A stretch of 38,477 nt of DNA from a virus (IMGVR_UViG_3300037486_000104:1-38477), one strand, 5' to 3'. Shown: positions 3,141 through 34,310, counted from the stretch's first letter. The notes: generated from the letters alone by a model not told the origin. Translations and numbers: made by a program.

Positions 3141-4508
3141 ATGGCAAATTGGTCTGCTGACTTTCTCGAACGCAATCCCGACCTCGCCGGGAAGACTTTG
3201 ACGCGGCACCGCCACGGCATCACGGCGGCGCTGAATGCGAGTGAAAGTGTTTCCCACTTCGTCGGCAGTCCGGCGCATTATCAGGATGGCAACGGCGCCT
3301 GGCAGCCGCTCGATACCGCGCTACAGTTGATCGGCACCGAGTATGGTGCGCCGGGTCTGGCAACGCGCATCAGCCTCGATGGGGCGGTGCGCATCGCCGG
3401 CCAGACGCATGGCCACCGCTCCACGCGCGTCGGCATCCTCACGCCGGCGACTATGAGTTTTGTCGGCTACCGCACGATTCCCAACGGCGCGGTTTCCGGC
3501 AACCAGATCATTGCGGAGAACGGCATCTGGAAGCGCGTGTTGACGCTGACCGAGCGCGGGGTGCGTGAGGAGATCGTCATCGCTGAGAAGCCCAGTATCC
3601 CCGGCGTCAAGCTCACGGACTGGCTGGTGTTGGAAACGGCGATCCAGGGCAGCAGTTTCCCGGACGGCTGGCTCGATGAGTTTGAGGCGAGCGAGATGCG
3701 CTTCCCGCCGCCGCGCGCGCACGACAGTAGCGTGGAGCAGCCTGATACTCCCGCTGAGTGCAAACGTTATGCGCGCACCGTGGGTAACATCCAGTATCTC
3801 TATACCGGCGTGCCGGTCGCCTGGCTCGCGGATGCCGTCTACCCAGTCACCATCGACCCCGATTTTGCCGCGGATAGCGCCGATGTCGAGGTGTACGGCG
3901 GCCCTGCAGCCTATGCGACCGCGCGCAGCACAAGCACCGGCTACATCGATGATACAACCATGCGCGTCGGCCAGACCCGGTCGGGGACGTGGTCTGTGTG
4001 GCGCGCGCTGCTGCTCTTCGACACCAGCGCCATCCCTGATGGCGACATCATCTCGCAAGTCAATCTAAAACTAACCTGCACCGATGACCAGTCTGGCGCC
4101 GCCGATTTCGACGTCCAAATCGCAAAACAGGATTGGTCAGCGCAGAATCCGGTGGACGCGGGCAACCGGGAGGCGGCTTACGACAACTGCCTGGCCGCCA
4201 CCGCTGATGACGCCATATGGCGTAACACGAACGCCATCAGTACCAACACGGAATACACGTCTGGCAATCTCGCGACTGCCTGGCCCAGCAAAACCGGCGT
4301 CACCTATTATTCGTTGCGTTCCAGCCGCGATTATGACAACAACACGCCGGGCGGTGCTGAATATATCGCAATCGCCGCGCAGGATCACGGGACGGCGGGC
4401 TACCGGCCCCTGTTGGCGATCACGCACGCGGCACCGCCAGGGCATCCCGCCATGCGTCGCATGATGAACGTACCCTACGTTGTAGGAGGCAGGTCTTACT
4501 ATGGCTGA
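3141..4508 (+). CDS. Phage adhesin/fibre-like protein with C-terminal jelly-roll-like domain
   Basis: 455 residues from ATG 3141, behind gtgaggg. The N-terminal 70 residues contain HYQDGNGAWQPLDTAL, a pattern seen in large secreted repeat and toxin-scaffold proteins where a substrate-facing module begins. The middle contains PVAWLADAVYPVTIDPDF, also typical of such extracellular scaffolds. From about residue 285, WRALLLFDTSAIPDGDIISQ resembles DNRLRE/carbohydrate-binding-type beta-sandwich domains (FDTS..IP.G..I). No signal peptide is seen, consistent with a virion protein rather than a secreted one. Likely a tail-associated receptor-binding or decorating protein; precise role inferred. Confidence 0.6.
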   Translation: MANWSADFLERNPDLAGKTLTRHRHGITAALNASESVSHFVGSPAHYQDGNGAWQPLDTALQLIGTEYGAPGLATRISLDGAVRIAGQTHGHRSTRVGILTPATMSFVGYRTIPNGAVSGNQIIAENGIWKRVLTLTERGVREEIVIAEKPSIPGVKLTDWLVLETAIQGSSFPDGWLDEFEASEMRFPPPRAHDSSVEQPDTPAECKRYARTVGNIQYLYTGVPVAWLADAVYPVTIDPDFAADSADVEVYGGPAAYATARSTSTGYIDDTTMRVGQTRSGTWSVWRALLLFDTSAIPDGDIISQVNLKLTCTDDQSGAADFDVQIAKQDWSAQNPVDAGNREAAYDNCLAATADDAIWRNTNAISTNTEYTSGNLATAWPSKTGVTYYSLRSSRDYDNNTPGGAEYIAIAAQDHGTAGYRPLLAITHAAPPGHPAMRRMMNVPYVVGGRSYYG

Positions 4509-7350
4509 AGTCACCGCTTTTAGAAATAATGCAACGAACTATCCGGTATACGGCGCTCCCTGGACGGTGGTCTTTCCGCTGCTCGACGCTGACGGAGATC
4601 CTGTCACCGGCGCGACCTGTGATAGCGAGCGCTCGCTCAACGGCGAGACCGGGGCGGATTGCACCAATGAGGGCACAGAAATCGCGTTCACGACGACGGC
4701 CAACAAAGGCATGTACTATCTGACGCTGACTGCGGCGGAGATGACTGCTGATATTGTCTCTGTGATCGTGGCGTCTGCCACGTCGAAAGCAACACCGATT
4801 GTGCTGTACCCGCGCAAGCTGGTGACATTGGCGAGCGGCACCTCAGCCGGTGGCGATACGGGCTATATCACGCTGGCAAACGGCACGGTCACGTATGACG
4901 ACCAATTCAACGGCTGCCTCTGCGTGGCGGTCATTGATTCCGTGACCGAGGCGCGCATTTTGCAGGACTGCACCGCCTCGAATCAGCAATGCACCGTGAC
5001 GCCAGCCTGGAATACTGCACCGGATAACAATGATACCTATATCATCTACCTGCCAGAAGGCAGGCAAGTGCCCACGAGCAACGTCATTCGCATAACCGGC
5101 ACAGCGCAGACGGCGCGCGACATCGGCGCATCTGTGCTACTCAGCACTGGCACGGGCACCGGGCAACTCGACTTTACGTCCGGCGTGGTCAAGGCAAATC
5201 TGGTGCAGATTTTGGCGGCGGCAGTCACCGGCACGGCGGCGCAGATCGTGGCCGCGTTTACCAAGTTCTTCGACAAGGCGAGTCCGACCGGCACGGTCAA
5301 CAGTCTACCGGATGCGGTCGCAGGTGCAACGAACGGCTTGTTTATAGCCGGGACGAACGCCGCGACGACCGTGACCACGGCATTGACGACCACTTTCACC
5401 GGCAATCTGACCGGTTCGGTGGGGACTGTGGCGACCAACGGCATCACGGCGACCTCTCTCGCCGCCGACGCCATCAATGCTGCGTCAATCAAAGCGGCTG
5501 CGATCACCAACGCTAAATTTGCGGCGGGCGCTATCGACGCCGCGGCGATTGCGGACGCGGCGATTGACAATGCGACATTTGCAGCCGATGTAGGTTCGAC
5601 GGCGCTGGCAACCAACATGATCGCAAAAGCCGCAGAGAAGACAGTCGGGGTGGGCGGCTTGAGTCTGACGGCCATCCCGTGGAATACGGACTGGGATGCT
5701 GAGGTGGAAAGCGAAGCCAATGACGCCCTGGTCGCCAATAACCTGGATCATCTCGTCAAGGTCGCCAAAGATACCAACTGGGCGACCACCGTCACGAAAG
5801 AGAGCGTCATCGACCTGATGACCTCAAAGAGCAGCGCGCAGACCTTTGACCGGGCTACCGACACCCTAGAAGCCATACGCGACGCGGTAACGATCGTCAG
5901 CGCGGGCGTGGCGGCTACCATCCAGGCGACGCAGAACACCGAGACCACCGGCACACTGGTAGGTGGCACGTATGCGCTGACCTACCTCTCCAACGCCACT
6001 TACTACATTCTCGCGCCGGTCACGCCGGCTGTAGGCGGCTATGGCCTGAATGCTTTCCTGACCTTTGGCGCAGTCAGCGGGCAATACATCAACTCGGTCA
6101 CGATCCGCGGCTACTTCGCAGCCGGGCCGGGGCGCTTCTGTCATATCGGGGCCTATAACTACCTCACGTCCAGCATTGACATCCTGAGTGATACGACCAG
6201 CCGCATGAACAATGCCTCGGCCAATGCGACCTACGCCTACTCGCTGCTGAGCGCGCATCAGAAATCGGACGGCGAAGTCAAGATTTACTTCCTCTCGCCG
6301 TCCGTGACGACCGGCGACCGCCTCAACATCGATCAATGTCTGGTCAACGTCAACACAGCTGGCGCATCGGCCTCCGACATCGCCGCAGCCGTTAAACAAA
6401 CCATGATCACGCTGTACTACCCGGAAGGCGTCTGGATCGACACCACGGTCGGCGGCGGGGTGGCTGGCACAACGCTGGGCGTCAACGGCCTGCGCACGAA
6501 TCCCTGTAGCACCTACGCTGACGCCATCATAATTGCCGCCGCGCTGAACCTGCGGCAGTTGCGCCTCAAGACCGGCTCGTCAATCGAGCTAACGCAGAGC
6601 CACGCGCAATGGCAAATCTACGGCGGCACGGTGGCGCTCGCCGGGCAAGTCATCACCAGCGCGCACTTCGAGAACTGCGTGCTCTCTGGCACTTCCTCCG
6701 GAACGGGCATAGACTTCTTTGACTGCCACTTCACCGGCACGGCGACGGGCGGCGGCGGCGATTACTACCGCTGCGGCTTCGGCGTCGTGACGTTCACCAT
6801 GATCGCGAGCAGTCTCTACAACTTCGTCAATTGCTTTGATGACGACCCGGACACGGCGACGAGTCCGATCTTCGTCTTTGCCGCCTCCGCCGTAGTGGGT
6901 GCGCGCAACTGGCGCGGCGCATTCCAGGCTAACGGCATGGCGAGCACCAACAAGCTAACGCTCGACGGCGCGGGGCGGCTGGTCATCGGCAGCACCTCCG
7001 AACACGGCGCGATCACCATCCGGGGCTTCTTCTCGCCTGTCACGGGCGGCGATGGCCTGCACTCGGAGGCCGAGTTCGTGGCGCACGGCGGCAGCATCAC
7101 GCAGACCTCGCGCTTCGATACCACCAACGTTTCCGACGCCGCGTTGATGCGCGACTGGACGGCCGTCACCGGCACCGTACCAGATCGCTCGACACTGAAC
7201 GCCCTACGCTTCCTGCGCAACAAACGCAGTATCGCAGCAGGCACGCTCACCGTCACCAAAGAAGACGACACGACCGCGGCTTGGACAGCCGCGGTCACCA
7301 CCAGCGCCGCGGCGGAACCCGTCACGGCTATCGATCCAGCCGGGCCTTGA
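4501..7350 (+). CDS. Large tail fibre / receptor-binding-like protein
   Basis: 949 residues, starting at ATG 4501 and overlapping the previous gene by 8 bases, with aggaggcagg as ribosome site. Residues 1-110 (WTVVFPLLDADGDPVTGAT, later KGMYYLTLTAAEMTAD) form a beta-domain common at the N-terminus of phage fibres. Residues 110-200 form a second beta-domain. Residues about 310-380 are an Ala/Asn/Ile-rich repetitive stalk (AADAINAASIKAAAI). The C-terminal 300 residues contain regularly spaced short strands and Gly/Ser/Thr turns (for example VALAGQVITSAHFENCVLSG) consistent with a beta-helix. Likely a trimeric fibre binding the host surface; family membership is by appearance. Confidence 0.65.
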   Translation: MAEVTAFRNNATNYPVYGAPWTVVFPLLDADGDPVTGATCDSERSLNGETGADCTNEGTEIAFTTTANKGMYYLTLTAAEMTADIVSVIVASATSKATPIVLYPRKLVTLASGTSAGGDTGYITLANGTVTYDDQFNGCLCVAVIDSVTEARILQDCTASNQQCTVTPAWNTAPDNNDTYIIYLPEGRQVPTSNVIRITGTAQTARDIGASVLLSTGTGTGQLDFTSGVVKANLVQILAAAVTGTAAQIVAAFTKFFDKASPTGTVNSLPDAVAGATNGLFIAGTNAATTVTTALTTTFTGNLTGSVGTVATNGITATSLAADAINAASIKAAAITNAKFAAGAIDAAAIADAAIDNATFAADVGSTALATNMIAKAAEKTVGVGGLSLTAIPWNTDWDAEVESEANDALVANNLDHLVKVAKDTNWATTVTKESVIDLMTSKSSAQTFDRATDTLEAIRDAVTIVSAGVAATIQATQNTETTGTLVGGTYALTYLSNATYYILAPVTPAVGGYGLNAFLTFGAVSGQYINSVTIRGYFAAGPGRFCHIGAYNYLTSSIDILSDTTSRMNNASANATYAYSLLSAHQKSDGEVKIYFLSPSVTTGDRLNIDQCLVNVNTAGASASDIAAAVKQTMITLYYPEGVWIDTTVGGGVAGTTLGVNGLRTNPCSTYADAIIIAAALNLRQLRLKTGSSIELTQSHAQWQIYGGTVALAGQVITSAHFENCVLSGTSSGTGIDFFDCHFTGTATGGGGDYYRCGFGVVTFTMIASSLYNFVNCFDDDPDTATSPIFVFAASAVVGARNWRGAFQANGMASTNKLTLDGAGRLVIGSTSEHGAITIRGFFSPVTGGDGLHSEAEFVAHGGSITQTSRFDTTNVSDAALMRDWTAVTGTVPDRSTLNALRFLRNKRSIAAGTLTVTKEDDTTAAWTAAVTTSAAAEPVTAIDPAGP

Positions 7351-7371: not shown

Positions 7372-7857
7372 ATGGCAGCAGCAGTCTCTATCCGAGTGTA
7401 CACCGGTGCAGATGCAGGCACCGAAAGCTCCGCCGTTACCGGCATCGATCTGATCAGCGCCGATAACGCCACCAACAGCACGGCCAACCGTGCAGCTTAC
7501 CCGATCACCGCGGGCACGCGCTCCTACGAGAAGTGGATCAGGGCCTACGTGGACGCAGCCGCGGACAACTACGTGAGCACCTTCCAGTTGTGGGGCGACG
7601 GCGTAGTGCAGGCTTCGACAGTGCTCTACGTGGGCAAGACGGCGACCGGCGTCACGCCGACGACCACGACCAGCACCGTCGCGACCAACGATTGGGTGAC
7701 GTACACCAGCACCAGCAAGTTCGCCTGGCACGCCACGAACATGACCGGCGTGGGCAGCAAGTCCGATGCGGCAGTGTACCAAATTTCTGTTTCTGGGGAC
7801 GCCGCAGCCGGAAACTGGACTCAGGAAACGCTGAATTATTCCTTCAACGAGGCATAA
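7372..7857 (+). CDS. Phage structural protein, 161 residues, probably fibre-associated
   Basis: ATG 7372 preceded by taggagaagaag. The protein is Thr/Ser/Ala-rich with no membrane span and contains ISADNATNSTANR and EKWIRAYVDAAADNYVSTF, looking like a compact beta-sandwich exposed on the virion. Follows the large fibre gene in the same operon with a 21-base gap. Exact family not recognised. Confidence 0.6.
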   Translation: MAAAVSIRVYTGADAGTESSAVTGIDLISADNATNSTANRAAYPITAGTRSYEKWIRAYVDAAADNYVSTFQLWGDGVVQASTVLYVGKTATGVTPTTTTSTVATNDWVTYTSTSKFAWHATNMTGVGSKSDAAVYQISVSGDAAAGNWTQETLNYSFNEA

Positions 7858-7902: not shown

Positions 7903-9231
7903 ATGCACCTACCACAAACCACCGTCTTCGGCGTTGCCACGCTCCAGAATTGGAGCGACTTGGCGTTATGGGAACTATTCCTGAACGACCACCCCGACCT
8001 CAAATGTATCATCGAGATCGGGACGTATGCGGGCGGCCTGTCGTTGTACTTGCAGCAGCAGGCCGCAGCGCGCGGGTTGCGCTTTGCGACCTGTGACAAC
8101 GAGCGTTATCCGAGCGCGGCCATCGAGAAACTGGGTAGCAACTTCATCCAGGCCGACGCCCTGACCGATGCCACGATCCACGCGGTAGTGGCCGATCCCG
8201 GCAACCATCCCCTGCTGATTTACTGCGACGGCGGCGACAAGCCCGCCGAGTTCGCGCACTTCGTGCCACTCCTGCAATCGGGCGACTTCATCGGCGTTCA
8301 CGACTATGGCAGTGAGTTCACGGACGCCGACGCGCACCCCTTTGCCGACCTGCTCAGGCCCGCCGCCGTCGAGCGCCATTGCCAAGCCAATAGCTTGACG
8401 CGTTTCTACCGGCGCATCGCCCAAGACGGCTGGGGCAGCATTGGCGTGGGCGTGCGTATCTCCAAATATCCTGAACCGGCCTTTTTCTGCGCGTGGACGG
8501 CCCTACTCACGGGCGGCCTGCGCAGCGAGGACACGGTACTTTTGCCAGCTACGCATATGCCCGCGCATTGGGCCGCCGATGCCCTGGTGCGCGAGTTCAT
8601 CAAGTCCGGGCGCGATACCCTGCTCTTGGTGGACGACGACATGACCTTCACGCCGGACACGCTCAAGACGTTGCGCGAGCACGAAGCCAACTGGCAATAT
8701 GATATTATCACCGCCGTTGCCACGCATCGCTCCTGGCCGCCGACGCCGGTCATCATGCAATTGCAGGAGCAACCCAGCGGCCCGGAAGCGCGCAAAGGCG
8801 AGTTCTTCAAGACGGTCACCGATTGGCAGCCTGGCGAGGTTGTACCCGTGGACGCTTGCGGACTGGCCTTTACGCTGATTCGTCGCAACGTGCTGACCGA
8901 GATGGCTGATAAAGCCTATAACCTCGATCTAAATTACTGGTTCCACTACGGCCCTGGCAACGAATCCGACGACATCCCGTTTTGTCGCCGGGCACGCAAC
9001 ATGGGCTTCCGGCTTGGCGTCGATACGTCTATCGAGCTTGGACATATCGCCGCCGTGCCCCTGACCGCCGAAAACTGGCGTGGCTTCCAGGCCCAGCGCG
9101 CCTTAGTACAAGAGGGCTACCGGGCCGATGTGGACGGCGACCGCCTGGCCGCGGTCTTGCGCGAGGCGCTGCCCAACCTGACCGAGCATAAGGCCGACGC
9201 CGAAAAGCTCTTGGAGGTGATTCGTGCCTGA
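7903..9231 (+). CDS. Fusion of SAM-dependent methyltransferase-like and GT-A glycosyltransferase-like domains
   Basis: 442 residues from ATG 7903, with gggggcaat upstream. The N-terminal half (about 30-185) has a Rossmann methyltransferase layout of the CmcI / class I type: motif I at residues 36-45 (IIEIGTYAGG), a following acidic strand (CDNE, 64-67), and HDYGSEF near residue 133. The C-terminal half has GT-A features: LLLVDDDMTFTPDTL with the DDD at 244-246, a predicted metal and sugar-nucleotide site, and VDACGLAFTLIRRNVL about 65 residues later, typical of GT2-type enzymes. The fusion suggests a two-step sugar modification. It lies among fibre genes, so a virion glycan target is plausible. 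Substrate unknown. Confidence 0.65.
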   Translation: MHLPQTTVFGVATLQNWSDLALWELFLNDHPDLKCIIEIGTYAGGLSLYLQQQAAARGLRFATCDNERYPSAAIEKLGSNFIQADALTDATIHAVVADPGNHPLLIYCDGGDKPAEFAHFVPLLQSGDFIGVHDYGSEFTDADAHPFADLLRPAAVERHCQANSLTRFYRRIAQDGWGSIGVGVRISKYPEPAFFCAWTALLTGGLRSEDTVLLPATHMPAHWAADALVREFIKSGRDTLLLVDDDMTFTPDTLKTLREHEANWQYDIITAVATHRSWPPTPVIMQLQEQPSGPEARKGEFFKTVTDWQPGEVVPVDACGLAFTLIRRNVLTEMADKAYNLDLNYWFHYGPGNESDDIPFCRRARNMGFRLGVDTSIELGHIAAVPLTAENWRGFQAQRALVQEGYRADVDGDRLAAVLREALPNLTEHKADAEKLLEVIRA

Positions 9232-9592
9232 GTACATCTACGATATCGCCATCGAAGCGCCAGGCGGCCAGGTCAAGATCGACTGGGGCAACGCGCCCGG
9301 TTGGATGGAGACGCAGCGCGTCTTACTCGACACGGCGGAGCGGGTCAGCCTATTGCCCAAAGACCCGGCTGTAGGACTGCCCTTGATCTCGACGCAACTG
9401 CAACCCGGCCAGCGGTGGGTGCTGTTCAGTCGCGTGTACGGCCAGGTGACGGGTGGCAAACAGGTGCGCTTGTACTGCATCGGTTGGCAGCAGACCGTGG
9501 GCGGTAAGAGCATCAAGGCGCTAACCTGGGTCTATCCAAACGGCGTCATTGAGAACGGCAACGAGCCGACTTACTGGCTCAACTTTCTTTAG
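9224..9592 (+). CDS. Hypothetical phage protein, 122 residues
   Basis: GTG start at 9224, eight bases inside the end of the previous gene, with the near-perfect ribosome site GGAGGTGATT; this decides the start. The product is beta-rich (WVLFSRVYGQVTGGKQVRLYC in two pieces) without membrane spans. Tight coupling to the methyltransferase-glycosyltransferase gene suggests a functional link, either as a small accessory or a virion protein. Family not recognised. Confidence 0.6.
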   Translation: MPEYIYDIAIEAPGGQVKIDWGNAPGWMETQRVLLDTAERVSLLPKDPAVGLPLISTQLQPGQRWVLFSRVYGQVTGGKQVRLYCIGWQQTVGGKSIKALTWVYPNGVIENGNEPTYWLNFL

Positions 9593-9631: not shown

Positions 9632-9703
9632 ATGGCAACGAATCCAATCGCAGAGCAATTTAACAACCGAATAGTCGCGGCTGTTCTGGACGGACAGCCA
9701 TGA
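9632..9703 (+). CDS. 23-residue small ORF coupled to the giant repeat gene
   Basis: ATG 9632 to TGA 9701-9703 encodes MATNPIAEQFNNRIVAAVL plus DGQP. It is preceded by tgaggtac and its stop overlaps the ATG of the 1304-residue gene (ATGA at 9700-9703). The overlap supports real translation and coupling. Function unknown. Confidence 0.5.
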   Translation: MATNPIAEQFNNRIVAAVLDGQP

Positions 9704-12700
9704 GCGCGGGCTTATTCGATCTGCTTGGCCTTGGCCTGGGTCTGGGCGTACCACAGGTAGTCGGCTCATTTACCGCCGATGCGATCCTGCAACGGGCGCG
9801 CAGTGGCTCGGTGACCGCCAATGCGATAATTGCGAAGACGCAGACGGGAAGCATCGCAGGTTCGGCGGTCGTGCTCGGCACTATCTCAAGCAGCGTAAGC
9901 GCCAGCGCCGTCCTGGCAAAGAGTCAAGCGGACAGCATCATGGCCTCCGCGGTTATTGTCAAGGCGGGCAGCGGCTCGGTAAGCGCCGCCGCCGTTGTCG
10001 GCAAGGCGCAGGCGGGTAGTCTCACAAGTGCGGCCATTATCCAAAGCGCTGTCTCAAGCAGCGTCACCGCCAATGCCATACTGGTAAAGAGTCAAGCCGA
10101 CAGCTTTACGGCTGACGCGATTATCATTAAGGCGGGCAGCGGATCAGTCACTACCGACGCGATTATCGTCAAGGGTCAATCATCTAGCGTAACCGCAAGC
10201 GCCACGATCCTTGCGGACAAAACTTCCAGCGTCACGGCGGATGCCGTACTCCAAACGAGCAGGGCCGCGAGTATCACGGCGGACGCCATTCTCCTGCACG
10301 GTCAAACAGATAGCGTAACTGTCGAAGCGGTCATCAGCAAGGCCAAGTCTGCCAGCTTTACAGGCGCTGCGATCCTGTTGCGGGAGCGCAGCGGGTCAAT
10401 CACTGCCGACGCGGTTTTGGTCAAGGCGCAGGCGACAAGCCTGACCGCCGCTGCCGTAATCCAACAAACGAGTGCCATCCAACTCACGGTAGATGCCATA
10501 ATCGTCAAGGGGCAATCCGCCAGCATAGTGGCAAGCGCCACGATCCTCGCGGGTAAAACTGCCAGTGTCACAGCGGATGCCGTACTCGTAACAGGCAAGG
10601 CCGCCAGCGTCACGGCCAGCGCCGTCCTACTCCGAGAACGAACGGGCAGCGTCACAGCCGCGGCGATTATCAATAAGGCCCAGTCATCCAGTGTCACCGG
10701 CGACGCGATTCTACTTCGGGAGCGCGGCGGCTCGGTAACCACCAATGCCGTTTTGGTCAAGGTACAAGCGGCGAGCTTTACCGCTTCTGCAATCATCCAA
10801 CAATCTGGCAGCGCCCAAACCGCAGCGGATGCCGTAATCATCAAGGCGCAAGCCACTGGCATCGCAGCCAGCGCGATTATCTTGCGGGCGGCAACAACTA
10901 GCATTACGGCTGATGCGGTACTGAGCAAAGCACAAGCCGCCAGCATCACAGCGGATGCGATTATCATTCTCGGTCGGACTGGTTTGCTGACTGGCGCAGC
11001 CGTAATCGTGCGGGCGCAGGCAGCGGCCCTTACCGCCGACGCGACAATTCAGAACGCTCTCGCAAGCAGCATCACGGCCAACGCGGTTATCCAGCGCGCT
11101 CGTGCAGGCACCTTTACAACTGACGCCATTCTTCAGACGTTACGCAGCGGCAGCGTCTCCGCCAACGCGACGATCTTCAAGGCGCAGGTTCAAAGCGTCA
11201 CGGCGGATGCCTATATCGTTACCATAGGCGCGCAGGCGATCTCCGCCGATGCCATAATCCAGCAGGAGCGCACTTCCAGCGTCACCGCCGACGCCTACCT
11301 CGTTTGGACAAGCGCGGCCAGTCTGACCACTGACGCAATTTTGCTCAAGGTGTCAGCCGGAAGCATCACCGGCGCGGCGATCATCCAACAGGGTAGGGCG
11401 TCAAGCATCACGGCGAATGCCACGCTAAAATCCGTAAGCGCAAACAGCATCACGGCGGATGCGATTATCATTGGCGCTCAGGCAGCCGCGTTTAGCGCCG
11501 ACGCCATAATCCTGCTACTCCGGTCGAGTAGCCTTACCGCCAATGCTATTGTTCAGAGTCGCGCAGACCGTGCCATAAGCGCGGACGGCATCATTCAACA
11601 GGCGCGTTCGACCAGCATCACGGCGGACGCCGTTATTGACAAGGCTGGTTCCGGGTCGCTGATCGCCGATGCCGTGATACAAGGCGCACAAACTGGCGCT
11701 GTAACCGCGGATGCCGTACTTCGCAGGGAACAGACAGGCAGCATCACCGCCGATGCCGTAATCGGACAATCTCGCTCAGGCACCTTTACAACCGACGCCA
11801 TTCTCCAGGCATTGCGCAGCGGCAGCATCACCGCCGACGCGACAATCGTCAAGGCGCAGGCCCAAAGCCTTACGGCGGACGCCTATATAGTCACCATAGG
11901 CGCGCAGGCGATCTCCGCCGATGCCATAATCCAGCAGGCGCGCACTTCCAGCGTCACCGCCGACGCCTATATCATTTGGACAAGCGCGGCCAGTCTAACC
12001 GCGGATGCAGTCTTGCTCAAGGCGCATGTCGGGGCCATTACCGGCGCGGCGGTCATTCAACGGAGTCGGGCGTCCAGCATCACGGCTGACGCCACACTAA
12101 AGTCTGTAAGCGCAAGTAGTGTCACGGCGAACGCCGTTATCAGCGAAGGTCAGGCAACGGCGCTAACCGCCGATGCCATAATCCTGCTACTCCGTTCGGG
12201 TGGCGTCACTACCGATGCCGTTGTTCAGAGCCGCGTAGACCGCGTCATAAGCGCGGATAGTATCATTCAGCGGACGGTATCACTCAGTGTCACGGCGAAC
12301 GCCGTTATCAGCAAGGCGGGTTCCGGGGCGCTGACTACCGACGCCGTAATCGGTCAATCACGGGCCAGTTCCTTTACAACCGACGCAATCCTGCTCAGGC
12401 AGCGTAGCGGTCAAGCCAGCATTGACGCCACGATCTTCCGCGCACAGAGCGGCAGCGTCACCGCCGATGCGTATATCAGCACGGCGGGCTGGCAAACAAT
12501 CACCGCCAACGCGACGATTCAGCGCGAGCGCACAGGCACAGTCACCGCGGACGCGTTTATCATTACGGCGCAAGCGGGGAGCCTGACAGCCGATGCCGTG
12601 GTGCAGGTCGGGCGTACTGCCTCGGTCGGCGCGAACGCTGTTATCCAGAATTCACGTACCGGACAGATCACGGCGCAAGCGATAATCCAGGCGGCGGGCA

Positions 12701-13614
12701 GTTCCAGCGTCGGCGTGGATGCCGTCATTCGCCAGGCGCAGAGCGGCTCCTTCACAAGCGACGCGGTTCTAACGGCAACACGCACCGGGCAAGTCACGGC
12801 GCAAGCAATCATCGTCCAAGCGCGCGCCGATAGTATCACGGCGAACGCCATTCTCAGCAGGACGCGCACCGGCAGCGTCACAACCGACGCCGTCCTGCTA
12901 CGGACGCAGGCCAGCACCTTTACAGCCGACGCCTATATCATCACGACTGGTGGACAGTCTATCACGGTTTCCGCCGTCATCTTGCGCGAGCGTACAGCAA
13001 ACGTCGCGGTGGGCGCATTCATCGTCACGCCGCGCACGGGCAGCATCACCGCCGACGCGCTGGTGTTGGTCGGGCGCTCAGGTAGCGTCACCGCCCAGGC
13101 AATCGTACAACAAGCCAATACCGGCAGCGTCGCGGCGCAGGCGGCAATCCAGACGACACGCGCGGGCAGCATCACAACCAGCGCCCTCCTGCAACAAACA
13201 CGAGCCGGGAGCGTCGTCGTCAGTGCCTTCCTGCAAACGTTGCGACTTGCCAGCATCACGGCACAGGCCGTGGTCAAGGCGACTCAGGCAGGTGCAGTCA
13301 CAGCCGCGGCCAGCATCGCCCAACCGCGGGCGAGCACTCTTAGCGCAAATGCCTACATCGTCTACTCCGGCGAGCGCGTGTTGCTGGCTGATGCGACGAT
13401 CTTGCGGGAACAAACCGCAAGTCTGACGGCTCAAGCGGTCATCAAGGCGACAGCAAGCGGCAGCATCACAGCGGGCGCCTACATTCTGAGCGGCATCATA
13501 CCGGAATGTCGCCTGTTTGACATCGAAGCGGAAGAACGCTTCTTTGACATAACTGAAGAACGCTTCTTTGACGTTGAGGCGGAAGACCGCTTCTTCGACA
13601 TAGACTGCGGCTAG
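9700..13614 (+). CDS. 1304-residue repeat protein (89 tandem 14-residue repeats), likely fibre shaft
   Basis: Starts at ATG 9700 coupled to the small upstream ORF. Residues 1-21 form a short hydrophobic Gly/Leu cap. Residues 22-1267 are exactly 89 repeats of 14 residues with consensus xS[VI]TADA[VI][IL]xxxxx. No indel disturbs the phase wherever I checked. The C-terminal 37 residues carry a different short repeat (RLFDIEAEE, RFFDITEE, RFFDVEAED, RFFDIDCG). Alternating small and beta-branched residues with a Gly/Ser turn suggest a beta-solenoid or beta-roll fibre. The next gene looks like a fibre-tail adaptor, which supports a fibre role. No catalytic motif is seen. Function is inferred from architecture and context. 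Confidence 0.7.
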   Translation: MSAGLFDLLGLGLGLGVPQVVGSFTADAILQRARSGSVTANAIIAKTQTGSIAGSAVVLGTISSSVSASAVLAKSQADSIMASAVIVKAGSGSVSAAAVVGKAQAGSLTSAAIIQSAVSSSVTANAILVKSQADSFTADAIIIKAGSGSVTTDAIIVKGQSSSVTASATILADKTSSVTADAVLQTSRAASITADAILLHGQTDSVTVEAVISKAKSASFTGAAILLRERSGSITADAVLVKAQATSLTAAAVIQQTSAIQLTVDAIIVKGQSASIVASATILAGKTASVTADAVLVTGKAASVTASAVLLRERTGSVTAAAIINKAQSSSVTGDAILLRERGGSVTTNAVLVKVQAASFTASAIIQQSGSAQTAADAVIIKAQATGIAASAIILRAATTSITADAVLSKAQAASITADAIIILGRTGLLTGAAVIVRAQAAALTADATIQNALASSITANAVIQRARAGTFTTDAILQTLRSGSVSANATIFKAQVQSVTADAYIVTIGAQAISADAIIQQERTSSVTADAYLVWTSAASLTTDAILLKVSAGSITGAAIIQQGRASSITANATLKSVSANSITADAIIIGAQAAAFSADAIILLLRSSSLTANAIVQSRADRAISADGIIQQARSTSITADAVIDKAGSGSLIADAVIQGAQTGAVTADAVLRREQTGSITADAVIGQSRSGTFTTDAILQALRSGSITADATIVKAQAQSLTADAYIVTIGAQAISADAIIQQARTSSVTADAYIIWTSAASLTADAVLLKAHVGAITGAAVIQRSRASSITADATLKSVSASSVTANAVISEGQATALTADAIILLLRSGGVTTDAVVQSRVDRVISADSIIQRTVSLSVTANAVISKAGSGALTTDAVIGQSRASSFTTDAILLRQRSGQASIDATIFRAQSGSVTADAYISTAGWQTITANATIQRERTGTVTADAFIITAQAGSLTADAVVQVGRTASVGANAVIQNSRTGQITAQAIIQAAGSSSVGVDAVIRQAQSGSFTSDAVLTATRTGQVTAQAIIVQARADSITANAILSRTRTGSVTTDAVLLRTQASTFTADAYIITTGGQSITVSAVILRERTANVAVGAFIVTPRTGSITADALVLVGRSGSVTAQAIVQQANTGSVAAQAAIQTTRAGSITTSALLQQTRAGSVVVSAFLQTLRLASITAQAVVKATQAGAVTAAASIAQPRASTLSANAYIVYSGERVLLADATILREQTASLTAQAVIKATASGSITAGAYILSGIIPECRLFDIEAEERFFDITEERFFDVEAEDRFFDIDCG
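9763..13500 (+). repeat. 42-bp coding repeat array, 89 units
   Basis: The 3738-bp stretch codes for 89 in-phase 14-residue repeats. Units differ in sequence but keep length. The most conserved DNA core is close to agcatcacggcggatgcc. It will be a recombination hotspot and a likely site of length variation or assembly error. Confidence 0.9.
11107..12450 (+). repeat. 672-bp higher-order tandem duplication inside the repeat gene
   Basis: Sixteen 14-residue units (11107-11778) are duplicated as the next sixteen (11779-12450). Both copies begin with G-T-F-T-T-D-A-I-L-Q and pass through YIVTIGAQAISADAIIQQ and then ATLKSVSA. A further diverged copy starts at 12367 (SSFTTDAILLRQRS). This shows growth by block duplication as well as by single units. 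Confidence 0.75.
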
Positions 13615-13627
13615 ACTAAGGTGTACT

Positions 13628-13903
13628 ATGGCAAGCAAACGAACCGTCACTAAAGACCCACAAGCCATCCTGGACTACGGTTTCAGGTACGTCGGGTGGC
13701 TCGGCATCGACACAATCACGGCATCGACGTGGACGGTGCCAACCGGCTTGACGAAAGTCTCGGATTCCTTCACTACCACGACGGCCACCATCTGGCTCAG
13801 TGGCGGCGCGGTCGGTGAGCAATATCAGGTTGTCAATAAAATCGTCACGGTCGGCCAGCGCACCGATGAGCGAACGCTCGTCGTCAACATCGAGCAAAAG
13901 TAG
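13628..13903 (+). CDS. Fibre-tail adaptor-like protein
   Basis: 91 residues from ATG 13628 (aaggtg upstream). The pattern DPQAILDYGFRYVGWLG, then TASTWTVPTGLT, TTATIWLSGGAVGEQYQVV and GQRTDERTLVV, matches my memory of the family annotated as phage fibre-tail adaptor proteins: a small beta-sandwich of about 90-110 residues with this Trp-Leu, TIW and RTDER signature. It directly follows the repeat fibre, so it probably joins a fibre to the tail or neck. Confidence 0.65.
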   Translation: MASKRTVTKDPQAILDYGFRYVGWLGIDTITASTWTVPTGLTKVSDSFTTTTATIWLSGGAVGEQYQVVNKIVTVGQRTDERTLVVNIEQK

Positions 13904-13910
13904 GTGGCCT

Positions 13911-14273
13911 ATGTCCTTTACCTATCTACCCGGTCTAAGCAATGACACGTCACGTATCCGCGTGACAATTGGCGACACCACGGAGGGCGCGGGCATCCGG
14001 CCCGGCCAGGCCAACTTCAGCGACGAAGAACTGGCGGGCCTGATTATCATTCACGGCAACTGGCAGGCCGCGGCGATTGCGGCGGTCAACGCGGCGCGCG
14101 CCCAGTGGGCGGTCAAGGCGAGTTCGATCAGCATGGGCGATTATTCAGAGAGCAGGCAGCAGGTCGCTAATCTGACTGCTTTGTCAAAGGAGCTTTCGAC
14201 GGCGTTACCTGGGCAATGGACAGGCATGGGCTTGGGCGCAAGCACGGCTGCAAATCCGGCAGTTATCGGATAA
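13911..14273 (+). CDS. Head-tail connector-like (neck) protein
   Basis: 120 residues from ATG 13911; the longer frame start at 13800 overlaps the previous gene and lacks a ribosome site. The N-terminal DTSRIRVTIGDT followed by FSDEELAGLI and then an Ala-rich helix (AAAIAAVNAARAQWAVKA) is the usual layout of gp6-type head-tail connector proteins, which form a ring below the portal. Its position between fibre and head-closure-like genes supports this. Confidence 0.6.
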   Translation: MSFTYLPGLSNDTSRIRVTIGDTTEGAGIRPGQANFSDEELAGLIIIHGNWQAAAIAAVNAARAQWAVKASSISMGDYSESRQQVANLTALSKELSTALPGQWTGMGLGASTAANPAVIG

Positions 14274-18197: not shown

Positions 18198-18708
18198 GCG
18201 TCCTATCGCGCGTCCTGGGCGACGAATGGGTTGTGCAGTTCGGCAATCCCTACCATGAACCCGCGGGCACAACCAAAGGCGGGCGTTTCGCCAAGGCTCC
18301 CGCAGGCGCGCCAATAGCCGTTGGCTCACAAATCGCGGCGGGTATCCATCGCATTTGGATGGAACATCCTGTTTACGGAAAGGAAACCGTAGGCGAATTT
18401 CTTGACCGACACGAAATCAAAGTGCATGAAGACGGCACGGTAACACTTTATCATGCTCGGCCCAAGACGGCGGTTTTCGACACTCTCCGGGAAGGCAGCT
18501 ATCTCGAAAAAGACCCGGAAGCGGCTCGGCATTACGCGGCGCGAGATCGCGGTTTGAAGCCGGTCAGATTGAGGTGCTGGAGATTCGTATTCCCGTTGAC
18601 GCTATCGAGCCGGGCGTTTTCATTACGACGCGAGCGCCCTTTGAGGTAAAAGACGCCAAGCGCGTAAAGCCATCTCGCAAGAAGGCAACAGAGGATTGGA
18701 CGCCATGA
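18194..18708 (+). pseudogene. Second tagged ADP-ribosyltransferase-like protein, frameshifted near 18540
   Basis: ATG 18194 overlaps the previous stop. The N-terminus shares a tag with the ART gene at 15711: LGDEWVVQFGNPYHEPAG and KGGRFAK, 16 of 27 positions identical. The C-terminal domain has DGTVTLYHARPKTAV and YLEKDPEAARHYAAR, typical of ART-like folds (YH motif, then later acidic-Ala-Tyr helix). In the present frame the protein ends with an unrelated basic tail at 18649. Frame -1 carries the natural continuation (FEAGQIEVLEIRIPVDAIEP, then GVFITTRAPFEV) to TGA 18706-18708, which overlaps the next ATG as ATGA. A one-base loss near 18540-18550, or an assembly error, explains this best. Confidence 0.65.
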
Positions 18709-19187
18709 CCTGGCTTTCCTTTGGCGAGCGCACCTATCATCCCGGCAGCCTACGGCTTGACATTCGGCCCGTGGCGGACATCATGGGAGATGGATTGCGG
18801 CTCCCATTCGCGGATCGCAGTTTCGACGGCGTGGAATGCTACCACGTCCTCGAACACCTGCTACCGTGGGACGGCGCGCGGCTGCTGGCGGAAATGGCGC
18901 GCGTCACGCAACCCGGTTGCCCGGTCGAGGTCGCCGTGCCGGATATGCAGAAATGCGCCAATGCCCTGGTACACGGACACACGAGCGTGCTTGATATCAT
19001 TTTTAGCCCGCGGGCGGAACTGGCGCTGTGTCATCGTATGGGTTACACGCCGACCCTACTGGCGCAGGCCATGTTGAAGCACCTGCGCGGCGTAGACTTC
19101 TTGCCGCAGCGGGCGGAAGACGTTTTGGAGATTCGCTTGGTGGGTTATTCACCAGAAGGAGATCACTCAGATGATCCCTCTCAGTAA
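18705..19187 (+). CDS. Short class I SAM-dependent methyltransferase-like protein
   Basis: 160 residues from ATG 18705, chosen because it overlaps the natural stop of the preceding gene as ATGA. DGLRLPFADRSFDGVECYHV followed by LEHL (HVLEH at 47-51) is the motif II/III block of Methyltransf_11-type enzymes. The usual glycine-rich motif I at the N-terminus is absent or reduced to LRLDIRPVADIMGDG, so the domain is unusually short. It opens a sugar-modification cassette and may methylate a sugar or act with the partner enzymes. Confidence 0.65.
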   Translation: MTWLSFGERTYHPGSLRLDIRPVADIMGDGLRLPFADRSFDGVECYHVLEHLLPWDGARLLAEMARVTQPGCPVEVAVPDMQKCANALVHGHTSVLDIIFSPRAELALCHRMGYTPTLLAQAMLKHLRGVDFLPQRAEDVLEIRLVGYSPEGDHSDDPSQ

Positions 19188-20253
19188 ACCGCACTTCTTC
19201 GGTCGCGAGGTCGAATACGTCACGACCGCATTGGCCCAGCGCCAGCTTTCGGGTGGCGCGTATGTCGCGGCGCTCGAAGACGCCTTTGCGCACTTCATCA
19301 ACGCCAAGCACGCCATTTCCTGTTCGACAGGCACGGCGGCGCTGCACCTGCTGTTACGGGCACTCTGCGTCGGGCCGGGGGATGAGGTGATCGTACCGAG
19401 TTTGACCTATATCGCCACGGCCAACGCCGTGACCTACTGCGGCGCAACGCCGGTCTTTGCGGACGTTGACCCGCTGACCTGGACACTTGACCCGGACGCC
19501 GCGGCGGCGGTCATCACGCCGCGCACGGTCGGCATCCTGGCGGTGCATCTCTACGGCGTACCTGCGCCGCTCGACAAACTGACGTGGCTGGCCCACCAGC
19601 ATAGCCTGTGGCTGGCCGAGGACGCCGCGGAGGCGCACGGCTCGGTGTATCAGGACAAGCCCATCGGCAGCACGGCATTGGGCGCAGCGGCATTTTCATT
19701 CTTCGGAAGCAAGACTTTAGCGTGTGGCGAAGGCGGCATGGTCACGACGAACAACGCACGCCTGGCCGATGCCATGCGGCGCTTGCGCGGACAAGGTGTT
19801 GATCCGACGCGCAAATACTGGCATACTGAGCTTGGCTACAACTACCGCTTGCCCGAACTCAGCGCGGCGGTGGCGCTCGGTCAAGTCGAGACGGCAGCGC
19901 AACACGTCGCGGCGCGGGCGCGACTTTGGCAAGAGTATCAGGAACGCTTGCCGCAAGCGGACTGGCAACGCGCACCGGCCAACACGCAGGAATGTCGCTG
20001 GCTGGCGGCCCTACGTGTACCCAAACGTGACAAGGCCATGCGCGCCTTAGCGCAAGCGGGCATCGAAACCCGTCCGGCCTTTCCGCCCTTGCATACGCAG
20101 CCAGTCTACGCCATACCTGAAAGCAAGGCTTACGCATCTCAGCCGGTGGCTGAGGACATCGCGGCGCATGGCCTGTGCTTGCCGCTGCACGTTGGCCTGA
20201 GCGTGCAGGACATGGCGACGATTTGCCGGGAGGTAACGCCGTGGCTCGCATAA
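19171..20253 (+). CDS. DegT/DnrJ/EryC1/StrS-family PLP-dependent sugar aminotransferase
   Basis: 360 residues from ATG 19171, overlapping the previous gene by 17 bases with aaggagat upstream. Family signatures are clear: LSGGAYVAALEDAFA near the start, CSTGTAALHLLL (PLP phosphate site), PSLTYIATANAV, LAEDAAEAHG (Asp151 contacts the PLP ring) and FSFFGSKTLACGEGGM with the Schiff-base Lys181. Length is normal for the family. These enzymes transfer an amino group to a nucleotide-linked keto-sugar (for example perosamine-type sugars). An acyltransferase and glycosyltransferases follow, so an N-acylated amino sugar could be made and attached. No dehydratase is in the window, so the substrate would come from the host. 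Confidence 0.9.
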   Translation: MIPLSKPHFFGREVEYVTTALAQRQLSGGAYVAALEDAFAHFINAKHAISCSTGTAALHLLLRALCVGPGDEVIVPSLTYIATANAVTYCGATPVFADVDPLTWTLDPDAAAAVITPRTVGILAVHLYGVPAPLDKLTWLAHQHSLWLAEDAAEAHGSVYQDKPIGSTALGAAAFSFFGSKTLACGEGGMVTTNNARLADAMRRLRGQGVDPTRKYWHTELGYNYRLPELSAAVALGQVETAAQHVAARARLWQEYQERLPQADWQRAPANTQECRWLAALRVPKRDKAMRALAQAGIETRPAFPPLHTQPVYAIPESKAYASQPVAEDIAAHGLCLPLHVGLSVQDMATICREVTPWLA

Positions 20254-20951
20254 CCCTGACGTCGGCCTTCCGCAACAGCAGCGACTACTTGCCGCGCTAC
20301 TTCGCACAGATCGAGGGGCTGCGCGCGGGCCTGGAGGGGCGCGGCGACACGCTTGACTTGGCGCTGATTTACGGCGATTGCGTGGATCACACCGCCGAGG
20401 CGCTGTATTACATGGCCGCGGCCAGCGGTTGCACGGCGGCTATCGCGGAGCACTCACACGGTGGCAGGCACTTGGGTAGCATCATCACGCCGATGCGCTT
20501 GCGCGCCTTGGCGGGTGTGGGAAACGCCATGCTGGAATTGGTGCCGGACGAGGCCGACGCGCTGCTGTACGTCGAAAGTGACTTGATCTGGACAGCCGCC
20601 GACCTGCTGGCGCTGCTGGACGATCTGCAAACACCGCAGGTCAACCTGGCCTTCCCGATGGTCATGGCGAGCGGCGAACACCGTTTCTATGATACCTGGG
20701 CCTATCGCATCGGTACGGCATCCTTCCAGCGGTATTGGCCGTATCACAAGGCATTAGCGGACGGTGTGCCGGGCGACCTGGTTGAACTCAGCGGCGCGGG
20801 ATCATGCGCGGCGGTGCGTGGCGATACCGTACCAACCATTAAGCAGATCGGCTTCCAAGCCTGGGGGGTATGGCCGGAGCTTGTCAAAACCCTGGGGCAG
20901 GTTGGGTACCGAGCGTGGCTAGACCCGCGGGTAACAATATGGCACCCATAG
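20241..20951 (+). CDS. GT-A-type glycosyltransferase
   Basis: 236 residues from GTG 20241, with the ribosome site GGGAGGTAA and a 13-base overlap with the aminotransferase gene; this is preferred to the upstream frame start at 20175. [18 protein letters not shown] is a GT2-like first strand and helix, [15 protein letters not shown] a second, and [10 protein letters not shown] (ESD at 112-114) a likely metal-binding DxD-type motif. The C-terminus has [14 protein letters not shown], similar to the acceptor loop of related enzymes. Substrate unknown. Confidence 0.7.
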
Positions 20952-20962
20952 GAGAGAATCTC

Positions 20963-21529
20963 GTGCAAGATTCCACTACCACAACCGGCAACGTGCCGGT
21001 GACCATTGGCGGCAACGGCAGCATCCGCTACACCTTCGCGGAGTTTGGCGAGGGCGCGGAGATCTTCGACTGGTGCGTGGTGCTCAATCCCGAACTGATT
21101 CACATCGGGCCGCACACCAGGGTGGACAGCATGGTGAAATTGGAAGGCGGGCACGGCGCGGGCCTGTTCATCGGCGCACACGTGCATATCTGCTCATTCT
21201 GCCATATCAATACGGGCGGCGGCACGGTCTACATCGGCAACTATGCCGGCATCGCGTCCGGCGCGAAGATTCTCGGCGGCACGAATCTACCCGACGCGCC
21301 GAGTATGTCCGCGGCGGCTCCGCCTGAGATGCAGCACGTTGCGCGCATGGGCACGGGCATCGGCGCATACGCCTTCATCGGCGCGAACGCCGTGGTCATG
21401 CCGGGCATCACCATCGGGGAGGGCGCAGTCGTCGGAGCCGGTTCGGTGGTCACCAAGAACATCGCGCCGTGGACGATTGTAGCGGGCAATCCCGCCCGGC
21501 AAATCGGGGAGCGCAGCCATGACTGGTAA
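20963..21529 (+). CDS. Left-handed beta-helix (hexapeptide) acyltransferase
   Basis: 188 residues from GTG 20963, chosen because aggagaga lies just upstream; ATG 20939 lacks a ribosome site and overlaps the previous gene. Repeated hexapeptide turns are visible from about residue 50 on ([52 protein letters not shown]), ending with the family-typical [16 protein letters not shown]. Such enzymes acetylate amino or hydroxy sugars. Placed next to an aminotransferase, it probably N-acylates an amino sugar. Confidence 0.88.
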
Positions 21530-22547
21530 GCCAGAGCGTCCACCACTCAAGCTGGTCTGGATACCGGCCATTGCCGACGAAGCGGTCGGCTACGGCAAAA
21601 TCTCCGCCTATCTGCCGCGCTACGTCAACGCCGCGGGCGCGGAGAGCGTCGGCTATCGGGCCTATGATTGGGACTGGCGCATCGCGGTCGGCGGGCCGCG
21701 GGCTTACCTCATGGGCCGCGGGACGCACATCATCGAGGATTTTATCTATCACACCATGTTCGAGGCGCGCCCGATCCCGCCTGACTATCTCGGCGTGCTC
21801 AATCGCAGTCGGGCGATCTGGGTGCCCTCAACCTGGGTGCGCGACTTGTTCATCGAGGGCGGCGTGACGCGACCGATCTTCGTATCCGGTTACGGCGTCA
21901 ACAAGGACTACTTTCACGCCAAGTATGATATGCATCGGGAAGACGAACCATACACCTTCCTGTGGTGTGGCACGGCGCTAGGCGACGGCGAGAACATCGG
22001 TGACCGCAAGGGGGGCGAACTGGTGTGGCAGGCGTTTCGCAAGCTCAATCTACCGGACAGCCGCTTGATTCTCAAGGCCGGCGCTACCAGCGCGGTCAGG
22101 CGCATCGTGGGCGATGACCGCATCATGCTCTCGACGGGCAATTTACCGGAGGCGGATTACGCCATGCTGTTAGCGTCCGCTGACTGTTTTGTGTACCCAT
22201 CGCGCGGCGAGGGGTTTGGACTCCAACCGCTCGAAGCGCTGGCGATAGGGTTGCCGGTAATCGCACCGGCATATTCTGGCATGGCCGACTTTATCAAGTC
22301 GGATACGGCAATCGTCCTGCCCGTGCGGGGCGAAGTACATGCGCATCTGTACAGCAACATCTATAATCTGGAATGTGCTTGGGCCGAGCTAAGTCTGGAT
22401 GATGTATGCGACCGGATGCGTTGGGCTTACGACCATCGCGAGGAAGCCAAAGCTATCGGCTGCCGGGCCGCGGCTTGGGTCGCCAAACGTTGGACGTGGC
22501 AAGCGGCTGGCAAGCGTGCTTACAAGGCGCTGCTGGCTATCAAGTAA
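21519..22547 (+). CDS. GT4-family (GT-B) glycosyltransferase
   Basis: 342 residues from ATG 21519, overlapping the acyltransferase by 11 bases. The C-terminal domain shows the GT4 signature: [20 protein letters not shown] with the EX7E pair Glu231 and Glu239, then [28 protein letters not shown] and TGNLPEADY match the donor-binding region. The N-terminal domain has [17 protein letters not shown] in the glycine-loop position. It probably transfers the modified sugar to a virion or surface acceptor. It is the last gene before the tail-tube gene, so the cassette lies inside the structural operon. Confidence 0.9.
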
Positions 22548-27200: not shown

Positions 27201-30200
27201 CCTTGAAACCTAAATTGACGGAGCTTGGTGTTGCATTTGGCGAGTTGGTCAAGGCACTGGAACCCATCGGCGTAGTAGTGGCCGCTGTTATTGCTATCAT
27301 CGTCAAGTTGATCGGGGAGGTGCTAGGGCAGGTAATTGCCAATGCGGGTGTAATTTTTGGCGGACTACTTGACGTGGTAACTAACGTTATGGGGGGCATC
27401 ACAGACATTATCACTATTGCTGTGGCGGTGATTTCGGGAATCTTCTCCGGTGACTGGGAAAAGGCGAATACAGCCCTCAAGGCCAGCTATACAAGTCTGG
27501 ATGAACACATCCTTGGCATCGTCAAAGGCATCGTGACGGCCATCGAGGGCCTGGTCAAGTCGATATGGGATGCGATCTCAAATCTGATAAATGATCTCAC
27601 GGGCACGAATTTGCCAAAATGGGACGAGTTCAAGGAAGGGGTAGTAAAGGCATTCGAGCAATTGGCTACGGGCGTCAACGACAAAGTGAGCAAAGTTCGC
27701 AAGGCGATTGATAACATTGTCGATGCAATCCAAAACGCGATTTCCAACCCGACGCAGTTGCTCTACAACGTCGGGCGCGACATCATCGCTGGCTTGGCGC
27801 AGGGCATCATCGACATGAAGGATCATCTGCTGAAGCGGGCGCAGGAGCTTTTCGACGGGCTGCCGGTGTGGGCGCGCAAGCTGTTGGGCATCGCCTCACC
27901 GTCAAAAGTGTTTGAGGTGATTGGGCAAGAAGCTATGGCAGGCTTTGCCATTGGCCTAACGGCGGGTGCTGTGCCCGTGCTCGGCAGCATCACCAACACA
28001 ATCCAGGCGATCATTGCGGCGTTCGCGGAACTGGCGGGATGGGCGGCCTCGCCAAATAGCGGCTTTGCGAGCGCCAAGGCGGTGCTTGAACCATTGAACG
28101 ACATGCTGACCGCTCTCCAGGGCGTCCTTGAGGGGCTGGATGCTTTGGCGGACTTTGTGCCACGGACAAACATTGCGGCGAAGCTCCCGACACTTTTTGA
28201 GAGTATAAAGACCATCGTGCGCGGTTTTGCCGATATGTCCGGCTGGGCGGCTGATCCGGCGCACGGATTCTGGGGAGCAAAGGCGGTGCTGAAACCGCTG
28301 AGCGAGATGCTCGAAGGCTTGCCGTCGATTTTGGATACCGTGGCGGCTATAGCGGCCTATGATACGAAGCTGGCAAAGACGCAGGCGGGGGTGGCGTATG
28401 TAGTCGAGGCGATCCAGGTGATTATCGGTAAGCTGGCGGAGTTGAATCGAAAATTGGTGCCAGCCGAACTAACCGATGCGCTGGATTTGGCGCGTGTGCT
28501 TGGGCAACTGGCCGAGGGCCTGGCAGCCGTGCCAACGCTGCTAGAAGTAATCAATGGCGCACTGAACCTGAGCGAGCGCCTGCTGTCGGGCTTCGTACTT
28601 CCAAATGTGGCGCAATTGCGGCGGGTAGGCGAGTTTATTGCCCAACTGGTAACGGAAGTAGGTAAGGCAGCCGCGCTGGCAGATGAGGAACTGCGGGCGG
28701 CAGCCGTCCAGCTTGCAAACAGCGTAGGGCCGGTGCTGGCTATCATAGGCGACGCATTGGGCGTACTGGCAGACATGCGAAGCTACATCATCGTGCCAAA
28801 TTTGAACATATTGCGTTGGCAGGTGTTCCAAATCAGCTTCTTTATCATGTTTTTGGTCGATAGCCTGGGCGCACTTGGCAGGGACATTCACGATCTGGTA
28901 TATTCTGGCGCGCAAAAGTTACTTGAGGTGACGGGGCCAGCGTTGGCGGCTGTCAAAATGGCGTTTGAGTTGTTGGACAGCGTTCGCGACTTCCTGGTGA
29001 TTCCCGATATGAACCTCCTACGCTGGCAGGTATTCCAGATCACATGGTTCATCAAATATCTGGTCGACAACCTTGGTGTCTTCGGCAAGGATATGAGCGA
29101 TCTGGTATTGGGCGGCGCTCGGCGTTTTGAAGAAGTCGCCTTACCAGCGTTGGCGGCTGTCAAAATGGCATTGGATTTGTTGGCTGATGTGCGCGAGTTC
29201 GTCGCCATCCCAGACATGAAGGTATTAAGCTGGCAGGTATTCCAAATCACGGCATTTATCAAATACCTAGTCGATAGCCTAGGCGTCTTCGGCAAGGACA
29301 TAAGTTCCCTGGTGTACGCCGGTGCCCAACTACTTATCGAGGTGGCAGGGCCAGCGTTGGCATTGGTAAAAACGGCACTGGAAGCCATCGCCGCAGTGCG
29401 GGATTACGTACCGGTGCCCAGCCTCAACGCGGTGGATGTGAGCCTCCAACAACTGGCGACGTTCATTAAGCGGGTGGTGAATCTACTGGGCGCGGCCTCC
29501 GCGCTGATCACCGACGAGCTAATGACTGCGGCGCAAAAGCTGGCGACCGCGGCCGGGCCAGCGTTAGGACTTATCAAGACGGGCATCGACGCGCTAACAG
29601 CGATCAAGGATTATGTGCTGCTGCCCACTCTCAACTCGGTAGACAAAAGCCTCCAGCAATTGGTAACGTTTATCCAGAGGGTGGTCAACCTACTGGGTAC
29701 GGCCACCCCGCTGATTACCGGAAAGCTGCTGGAAGCGGCGCAGAAGCTGGCGACCGCGGCGGGGCCTGCATTGGGACTTATCAAGACGGGCATCGACGCG
29801 CTGGTGGCAATCAAGGACTACGTGCTACTACCCAGCCTCAACGCGGTGGACGAAAGCCTCAAGCAACTCGTGACGTTCATTCAGAGGGTGGTCAACCTAC
29901 TGGGCACGGCTACCCCGCTGATTACCGATGTGCTGATAACAGCGGCGCAGAAGTTGGCGACCGCAGCGGGGCCGGCGTTAGGGCTTATCAAGACGGGCAT
30001 CGATGCGCTAACAGCGATCAAGGATTATGTACTGCTACCCAGCCTCAACGCGGTGGACGAAAGTCTCAAGCAACTCGTGACGTTCATTCAGCGGGTAGTC
30101 AACCTGTTGGGCACGGCCACCCCGCTGATTACCGATGCACTCATGACCGCGGCGCAAAAGCTGGCAACCGCAGCAGGGCCTGCGTTAGGACTTATCAAAA

Positions 30201-31597: not shown

Positions 31598-31628
31598 ACG
31601 CCATGCTGCATACTATTCGGAGATTTTG

Positions 31629-32489: not shown

Positions 32490-32512
32490 TCTCACACCCA
32501 AATGGAGGATAC

Positions 32513-34194: not shown

Positions 34195-34211
34195 GGTAGT
34201 TTCCTTTCCGG

Positions 34212-34239
34212 TACTAGAATTCTGTTACTAGAATTCTGT
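34212..34239 (-). repeat. Perfect 14-bp tandem repeat, likely operator of the leftward unit
   Basis: tactagaattctgt occurs twice with no gap (34212-34225 and 34226-34239), each with the palindromic core AGAATTCT. It lies just downstream of the leftward transcription start and upstream of the ribosome site. Two sites 14 bp apart suit binding of a small HTH dimer, perhaps the product of the downstream gene. Confidence 0.65.
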
Positions 34240-34253
34240 TTCGATCTTTTTAT

Positions 34254-34282: not shown

Positions 34283-34310
34283 GGTATCTACTGAAACGTT
34301 AAGGTGCAAA

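Follow-up and report, generated by a model that had tools for sequence, protein, structure and literature searches.

What is the role of a phage protein built almost wholly of one short repeat, and to what might it be attached? The question is raised by an uncultured tailed phage represented by a 38.5-kb virus record (G000, IMGVR_UViG_3300037486_000104), all 38,477 nucleotides of which form the window analysed here. Its gene at 9700-13614 (+ strand) encodes a protein of 1304 aa, hereafter the array protein, with orthologues in two other virus contigs, L005 and L037. We propose that it forms the shaft, or rope, of a long fibre fixed to the head-tail junction through the adjoining Gp77-type adaptor, a reading to which we assign a probability of roughly two in three.

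Architecture of the array protein

The open reading frame divides into 22 N-terminal residues (9700-9765, +), 89 in-phase units of 14 residues (9766-13503, +) and a C-terminal tail of 36 residues (13504-13611, +). The original observation of 89 phase-locked units holds exactly: residues 23-1268, i.e. 1246 of the 1304, are consecutive 14-mers with no insertion or deletion between them. Identity at a lag of 14 residues is 0.343, whereas none of 2000 shuffles exceeded 0.149. The units follow the consensus S-[VI]-T-A-D-A-[VI]-I-Q-K-A-R-A-G. Column 8 is I, L or V in 89/89 units, column 6 is alanine in 87/89, and column 2 is V, I, L or F, again in 87/89. Columns 7 and, partly, 9 are likewise hydrophobic, and charged residues are absent from columns 2, 4, 6 and 8. 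The short hydrophobic N-terminus, MSAGLFDLLGLGLGLGVPQVVG, already noted as a cap, is kept in both orthologues, with MSEGLLDLLGLGLGLGVPQEVG as the L037 version; we propose that it may act as a distal coupling peptide.

The orthologue in L005, a 107.5-kb virus contig, has 86 units and the same ends. It is exactly 42 residues shorter, the loss lying around units 17-21. That of L037 (a 104-kb virus contig, genome G002) has 56 units, one of them 17 residues long. A distant relative in the 51-kb contig L060 (868 aa, L060 5320-7926) carries an SFTADAxI array with spacings of 12-18, and its N-terminal domain and acidic C-terminus differ from the ends of the window protein; gp77 was not found in this contig. 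Counting units in related genomes, as had been advised, therefore gives a series of 89, 86 and 56, which supports a long shaft whose length follows unit number. The claim that units never vary in length stands for the window and L005 but fails for L037 and L060. Since L060 keeps SFTADAxI at variable spacing, the conserved part would be the strand core, strict phasing being a feature of the window lineage.

Outside this group, the window, L037 and L060 arrays and the neighbouring 122-aa gene had no tblastn match among annotated phages, and scans of GTDB genomes gave no relative.

Age and growth of the array

Over 9700-13614, no 42-bp array is picked up by Tandem Repeats Finder. Units share on average 36% identity in protein and 48% in DNA, the latter made up of 55% at codon positions 1+2 and 34% at third positions; the repeat thus exists at the protein level. 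The missing 42-bp DNA array and the low third-position identity together rule out both recent slippage and an assembly artefact as its origin. Relative to the L005 orthologue, dN/dS is 0.26, and unit columns 6 and 8 have received no nonsynonymous change. These comparisons indicate that the array is old and under purifying, protein-level constraint.

Units 49-59 (11782-12243, +) resemble units 33-43 (11110-11571, +) at an offset of 16 units, an internal segmental duplication indicating that the array has grown partly through block duplication. Identity at lag 28 is slightly above that at lag 14, but within the window array only units 1-30 show a strong odd/even signal, and the L037 array has none. 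We therefore reject a structural repeat of two units (28 residues) and take the signal to reflect duplication history. Antisense open reading frames across the array, such as 10302-10967, were put down to its codon pattern.

A Gp77-type adaptor adjoins the array

The gene following the array had been described as fibre-tail adaptor-like, and it is one by homology: 13628-13903 (+) encodes a Gp77-type fibre-tail adaptor of 91 aa, matching PF23148 at E 5.9e-25 (above the curated cut-off), PDB 8jou_D at E 0.0047 and phrog_4137. Beside it lies a gene for a 120-aa protein (13911-14273, +) of phrog_1732, a family of unknown function. The family PF23148 (Gp77) takes its name from the fibre-tail adaptor of podophage GP4.

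A module of the GP4 fiber I type would be expected to carry five fibres on a 15-fold adaptor ring at the neck, and fiber I reportedly includes a 'rope' protein. The window resembles fiber I of Ralstonia podophage GP4 (Gp80, PF23140, plus rope plus Gp77, PF23148; PDB 8JOU) in that a Gp77-type adaptor is encoded next to an array whose tail carries ExR repeats. It differs in having no detectable Gp80, a period of 14 residues instead of about 20, an array protein exceeding that of the podophage four- to fivefold in length and, unlike the podophage, a long tape-measure gene as in siphophages. (This tape-measure gene, of 2439 aa, has 69-residue, 207-bp tandem repeats of its own at 28925-30389, with higher-order 414-bp pairs.)

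GP4-like podophages share the order Gp80 - array - (lyase) - Gp77, which in BcepIL02 reads Gp80 - array with ExR tail - Gp77 - tail fibre; in Sphingobium phage Lacusarx the array gene of the same trio likewise lies between Gp80 and Gp77. The module corresponds to gp55-57 in BcepIL02, a Burkholderia phage, and to gp193-195 in Lacusarx. The Gp80 of BcepMigl, a relative of BcepIL02, matches PDB 8jou_a at 2.5e-59. Entry 8jou holds 10 chains of Gp80 and 3 of Gp77, numbers that might correspond to a single fibre for every three adaptors. Neither the array, nor the tail as sequence or profile, nor the profile of the podophage arrays retrieved a relative in sequence searches of PDB, and the rope chain of GP4 was thus not found. 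The Gp77 domain was present in 8/8 records tested and Gp80 in 5/8 of the same search, including Lacusarx, whereas the window, G001 and G002 gave no hit to Gp80 (PF23140), the latter two being the 107- and 104-kb relatives and all three possibly fragments. We therefore regard the window module as working like GP4 fiber I without filing it as one.

Two fusions place Gp77 at the neck: with a phage head-completion protein in L008 (636-1304) and with an Ad1 head-tail adaptor in L024 (1501-2274). In the window, neck and tail-terminator genes lie a few kb downstream of gp77. In mycobacteriophages and some Gordonia phages, gp77 instead lies among minor-tail and lysis genes, and we therefore hold the neck location with reserve; attachment at the neck or collar, rather than at the tail tip, is the more likely arrangement.

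The C-terminal tail as a putative connector

For comparison, loci were fetched together with an adjoining Gp77-type gene. In most of them, the gene directly upstream of gp77 encodes a short-period array closed by three to five ExR repeats. Most periods are of 20 residues and the others of 21-24, with a periodicity of z 11-32 versus shuffles in most cases, compared with z <= 2.3 for control open reading frames of the window. Periodicity is weak in L016, Lacusarx, BcepMigl and Itty13, and the tails of L022 and L024-L026 are too divergent for the ExR pattern. Array and xVxAEDR-type tail occur together beside gp77 in Burkholderia, Microcystis and Sphingobium phages and in many uncultured ones. Even in Gordonia phage Vasanti, where the order is reversed and gp77 is followed by a protein with an N-terminal AEDR repeat and the array behind it, the motif still lies beside gp77. 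A literature search on the PAEDR motif yielded no related paper.

The L037 tail, CRIYDVPAEDRIFEVAAEDRTYDVAAEDRIYEVQCG, shows the canonical form of the repeat. Aligned with it, the window tail, ECRLFDIEAEERFFDITEERFFDVEAEDRFFDIDCG, reads as a divergent copy of this widespread C-terminal xVxAEDR repeat. The RFFD-repeat C-terminus described originally is thus present as a 36-residue tail, under a different interpretation. With its array gene, xVxAEDR-type connector tail and adjoining gp77, the window resembles the Gp77-anchored modules.

Two gp77 modules lie in the 104-kb phage genome that includes L037, at L037 8477-14347 and L055 7689-12039, and each continues with very similar genes of the 212-aa type and of about 800 aa. 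In this genome (G002), one module has the 14-residue array and the other an unrelated 24-residue array, yet their AEDR tails are near-identical, that of the second (module B) in six copies. As judged from sequence, this is a module duplication with array exchange. Such modularity suggests that the tail may be the Gp77 connector and the array an exchangeable shaft.

Neighbouring genes

A conserved open reading frame of 23 codons, MATNPIAEQFNNRIVAAVLDGQP (9632-9703, +), precedes the array; its stop overlaps the array start (ATGA), a possible case of translational coupling, and the same frame is found in L005 and L037. Directly upstream of the array, a 122-aa protein (9224-9592, +) is kept in L005, L037 and L060 (29% identity), as is a 161-aa protein further upstream (7372-7857, +; 36% identity in L060). 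These two are our best candidates for partner proteins. A relation of the 161-aa protein to the Gp80-like set was rejected (hhalign probability 0.1%). The 949-aa protein (4501-7350, +), a candidate distal adhesin, has a homologue (45% over 448 aa) in the L037 genome, where it lies upstream within the second of the two Gp77 modules.

Elsewhere in the window, 18696-22547 and 31587-35960 hold genes of sugar or surface-polysaccharide type within the virion-structure block: a DegT aminotransferase (PF01041), a glycosyltransferase of family 2 and an acetyltransferase-like hexapeptide protein. Near the contig end, 36692-37417 is low-complexity DNA with nested 12-, 18-, 36-, 54- and 78-bp repeats.

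Predicted structure: rod or rope

The repeats of YadA-like trimeric adhesin heads are likewise 14 residues long. The Pfam YadA head model did not match the protein, a scan up to E 0.1 giving only a sub-threshold GYF_2.

Structure prediction, the check originally advised, agrees with a β-rich repeat. AF2 folded 8 units, with 21 natural rows, into an all-β model of pLDDT 93.3 and pTM 0.85, the five models of the run spanning 71 to 93. For the C-terminal 13 units, pLDDT was about 75 across the array but fell below 50 in the tail. Superposed on the SufB/D β-helix, the 8-unit model scores Z 5.8 (2.7 Å over 106 residues) and the 13-unit model Z 12.1 (3.2 Å over 179 residues). The best fold matches of the models are the bacterial parallel β-helix or solenoid proteins SufB/SufD, HxuA, CsgA and FapC, which have no sequence relation to the array and share only a common arrangement with it; Foldseek against PDB and BFVD gave nothing at E <= 0.001.

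AF2 is prone to confident, unrealistic solenoids on repeats; where the repeats had diverged, methods were found to agree (PMC11795689). Because the units have diverged to 36% identity and columns 2, 4, 6 and 8 are free of charge, we consider a β-solenoid of one unit per turn likely despite this bias, if unproven and moderately supported. The array would measure 42.7 nm as a solenoid, against about 411 nm fully extended; a solenoid shaft of about 43 nm is plausible. The β-solenoid shaft of ~43 nm foreseen originally thus gains from two AF2 fragments resembling a parallel β-helix, but the preference of AF2 for solenoids keeps an extended, decorated rope a live rival.

Such a rope would be an extended chain donating each S-I-T-A-D-A-I-I strand to a partner, for instance the 122-aa or 161-aa product, as a beads-on-a-string fibre like GP4 fiber I that could reach several hundred nm at full extension. 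The flanking of the equivalent podophage and Lacusarx array genes by Gp80 and Gp77, the 10 Gp80 and 3 Gp77 copies in 8jou, the retention of both small upstream proteins even in L060 and the variable spacing there, from 12 to 18, all speak for it. Yet near-perfect phasing over 89 and 86 units exceeds what a flexible linker needs, and hydrophobic residues at column 7 and partly 9 would suit a strand with packing on both of its faces. The window lineage yielded no Gp80, and AF2 gives a self-contained β fold. Altogether, we consider the rope unlikely, though worth keeping in view.

Shafts in which three chains form a triple β-helix or β-prism are common in phage tail fibres, and an intertwined homo-oligomer of the array protein would also accord with the 3 Gp77 chains per set of Gp80 chains in 8jou and with the alternating I2-A4-A6-I8 pattern, which includes small residues. 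The sequence does not demand three chains, however, and no known trimeric fibre family turned up when PDB and Pfam were scanned by sequence. We hold this arrangement to be rather improbable. A non-structural or internal role, e.g. as a scaffold or head-packaged protein, is very improbable: nothing speaks for it directly, and although some neighbours in other phages are annotated 'head protein', the proteins so named are Gp80, whose structure as a fibre protein has been solved; the linkage to gp77 and the modularity of the AEDR tail point elsewhere.

A model for the proposed fibre

The preferred reading, a shaft anchored through Gp77, builds on what the sequences themselves hold: the array, purifying selection on it, its variable number of units, the xVxAEDR tail and the order array-tail-Gp77. 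The original view of a structural fibre protein with a Gp77-type adaptor has strong support from gene order, from the homologues and from the tail motif held in common. Each 14-residue unit would provide one S-I-T-A-D-A-I-I β strand, and the units would probably stack, one β-solenoid coil each, so that reach scales with unit number, to about 43 nm for 89 coils. The strands of the tail would dock onto the Gp77 collar ring, leaving the C-terminus proximal to the phage and the hydrophobic N-terminus distal, where it may carry or contact adhesin-like proteins encoded upstream (949, 161 and 122 aa).

Comparable fibres have been described. Anabaena myophage A-1(L) carries a 15-fold ring at its neck, on which five fibres about 100 nm long are anchored; these bead chains, which we liken to ours from their description, consist of about 14 repeated gp81 trimers and not of one tandem-repeat chain (PMC10966104). 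In LSH1, gp34-gp36 form a separate three-gene structural module in which gp35 matches 8JOU_g and the C-terminal end of gp34 is a poorly predicted β-helical region; unlike in the window, a 14-residue array is not reported (PMC13243795).

Within this setting, the window array is unusually long and best read as the shaft of a Gp77-anchored neck fibre. Tentatively, and at somewhat less than even odds, we envisage a plug-in neck-fibre system common to tailed phages of several morphologies. A small Gp77 socket would receive a short xVxAEDR plug borne on otherwise unrelated, swappable arrays (14-residue here, 20-24 elsewhere), and in the present lineage the Gp80 bead chain would give way to a solenoid formed by a single chain, with up to 89 coils, whose number of units sets the reach.

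The combination of array, xVxAEDR tail and gp77 offers a sequence handle by which fibre genes at present labelled 'hypothetical' or 'head protein' across many phages could be named. It also suggests a modular anchor of socket-and-plug design to which exchangeable shafts may be fitted. Should reach be set by unit number, the orthologues with 56, 86 and 89 units would be a natural length series on the tuning of fibre length.
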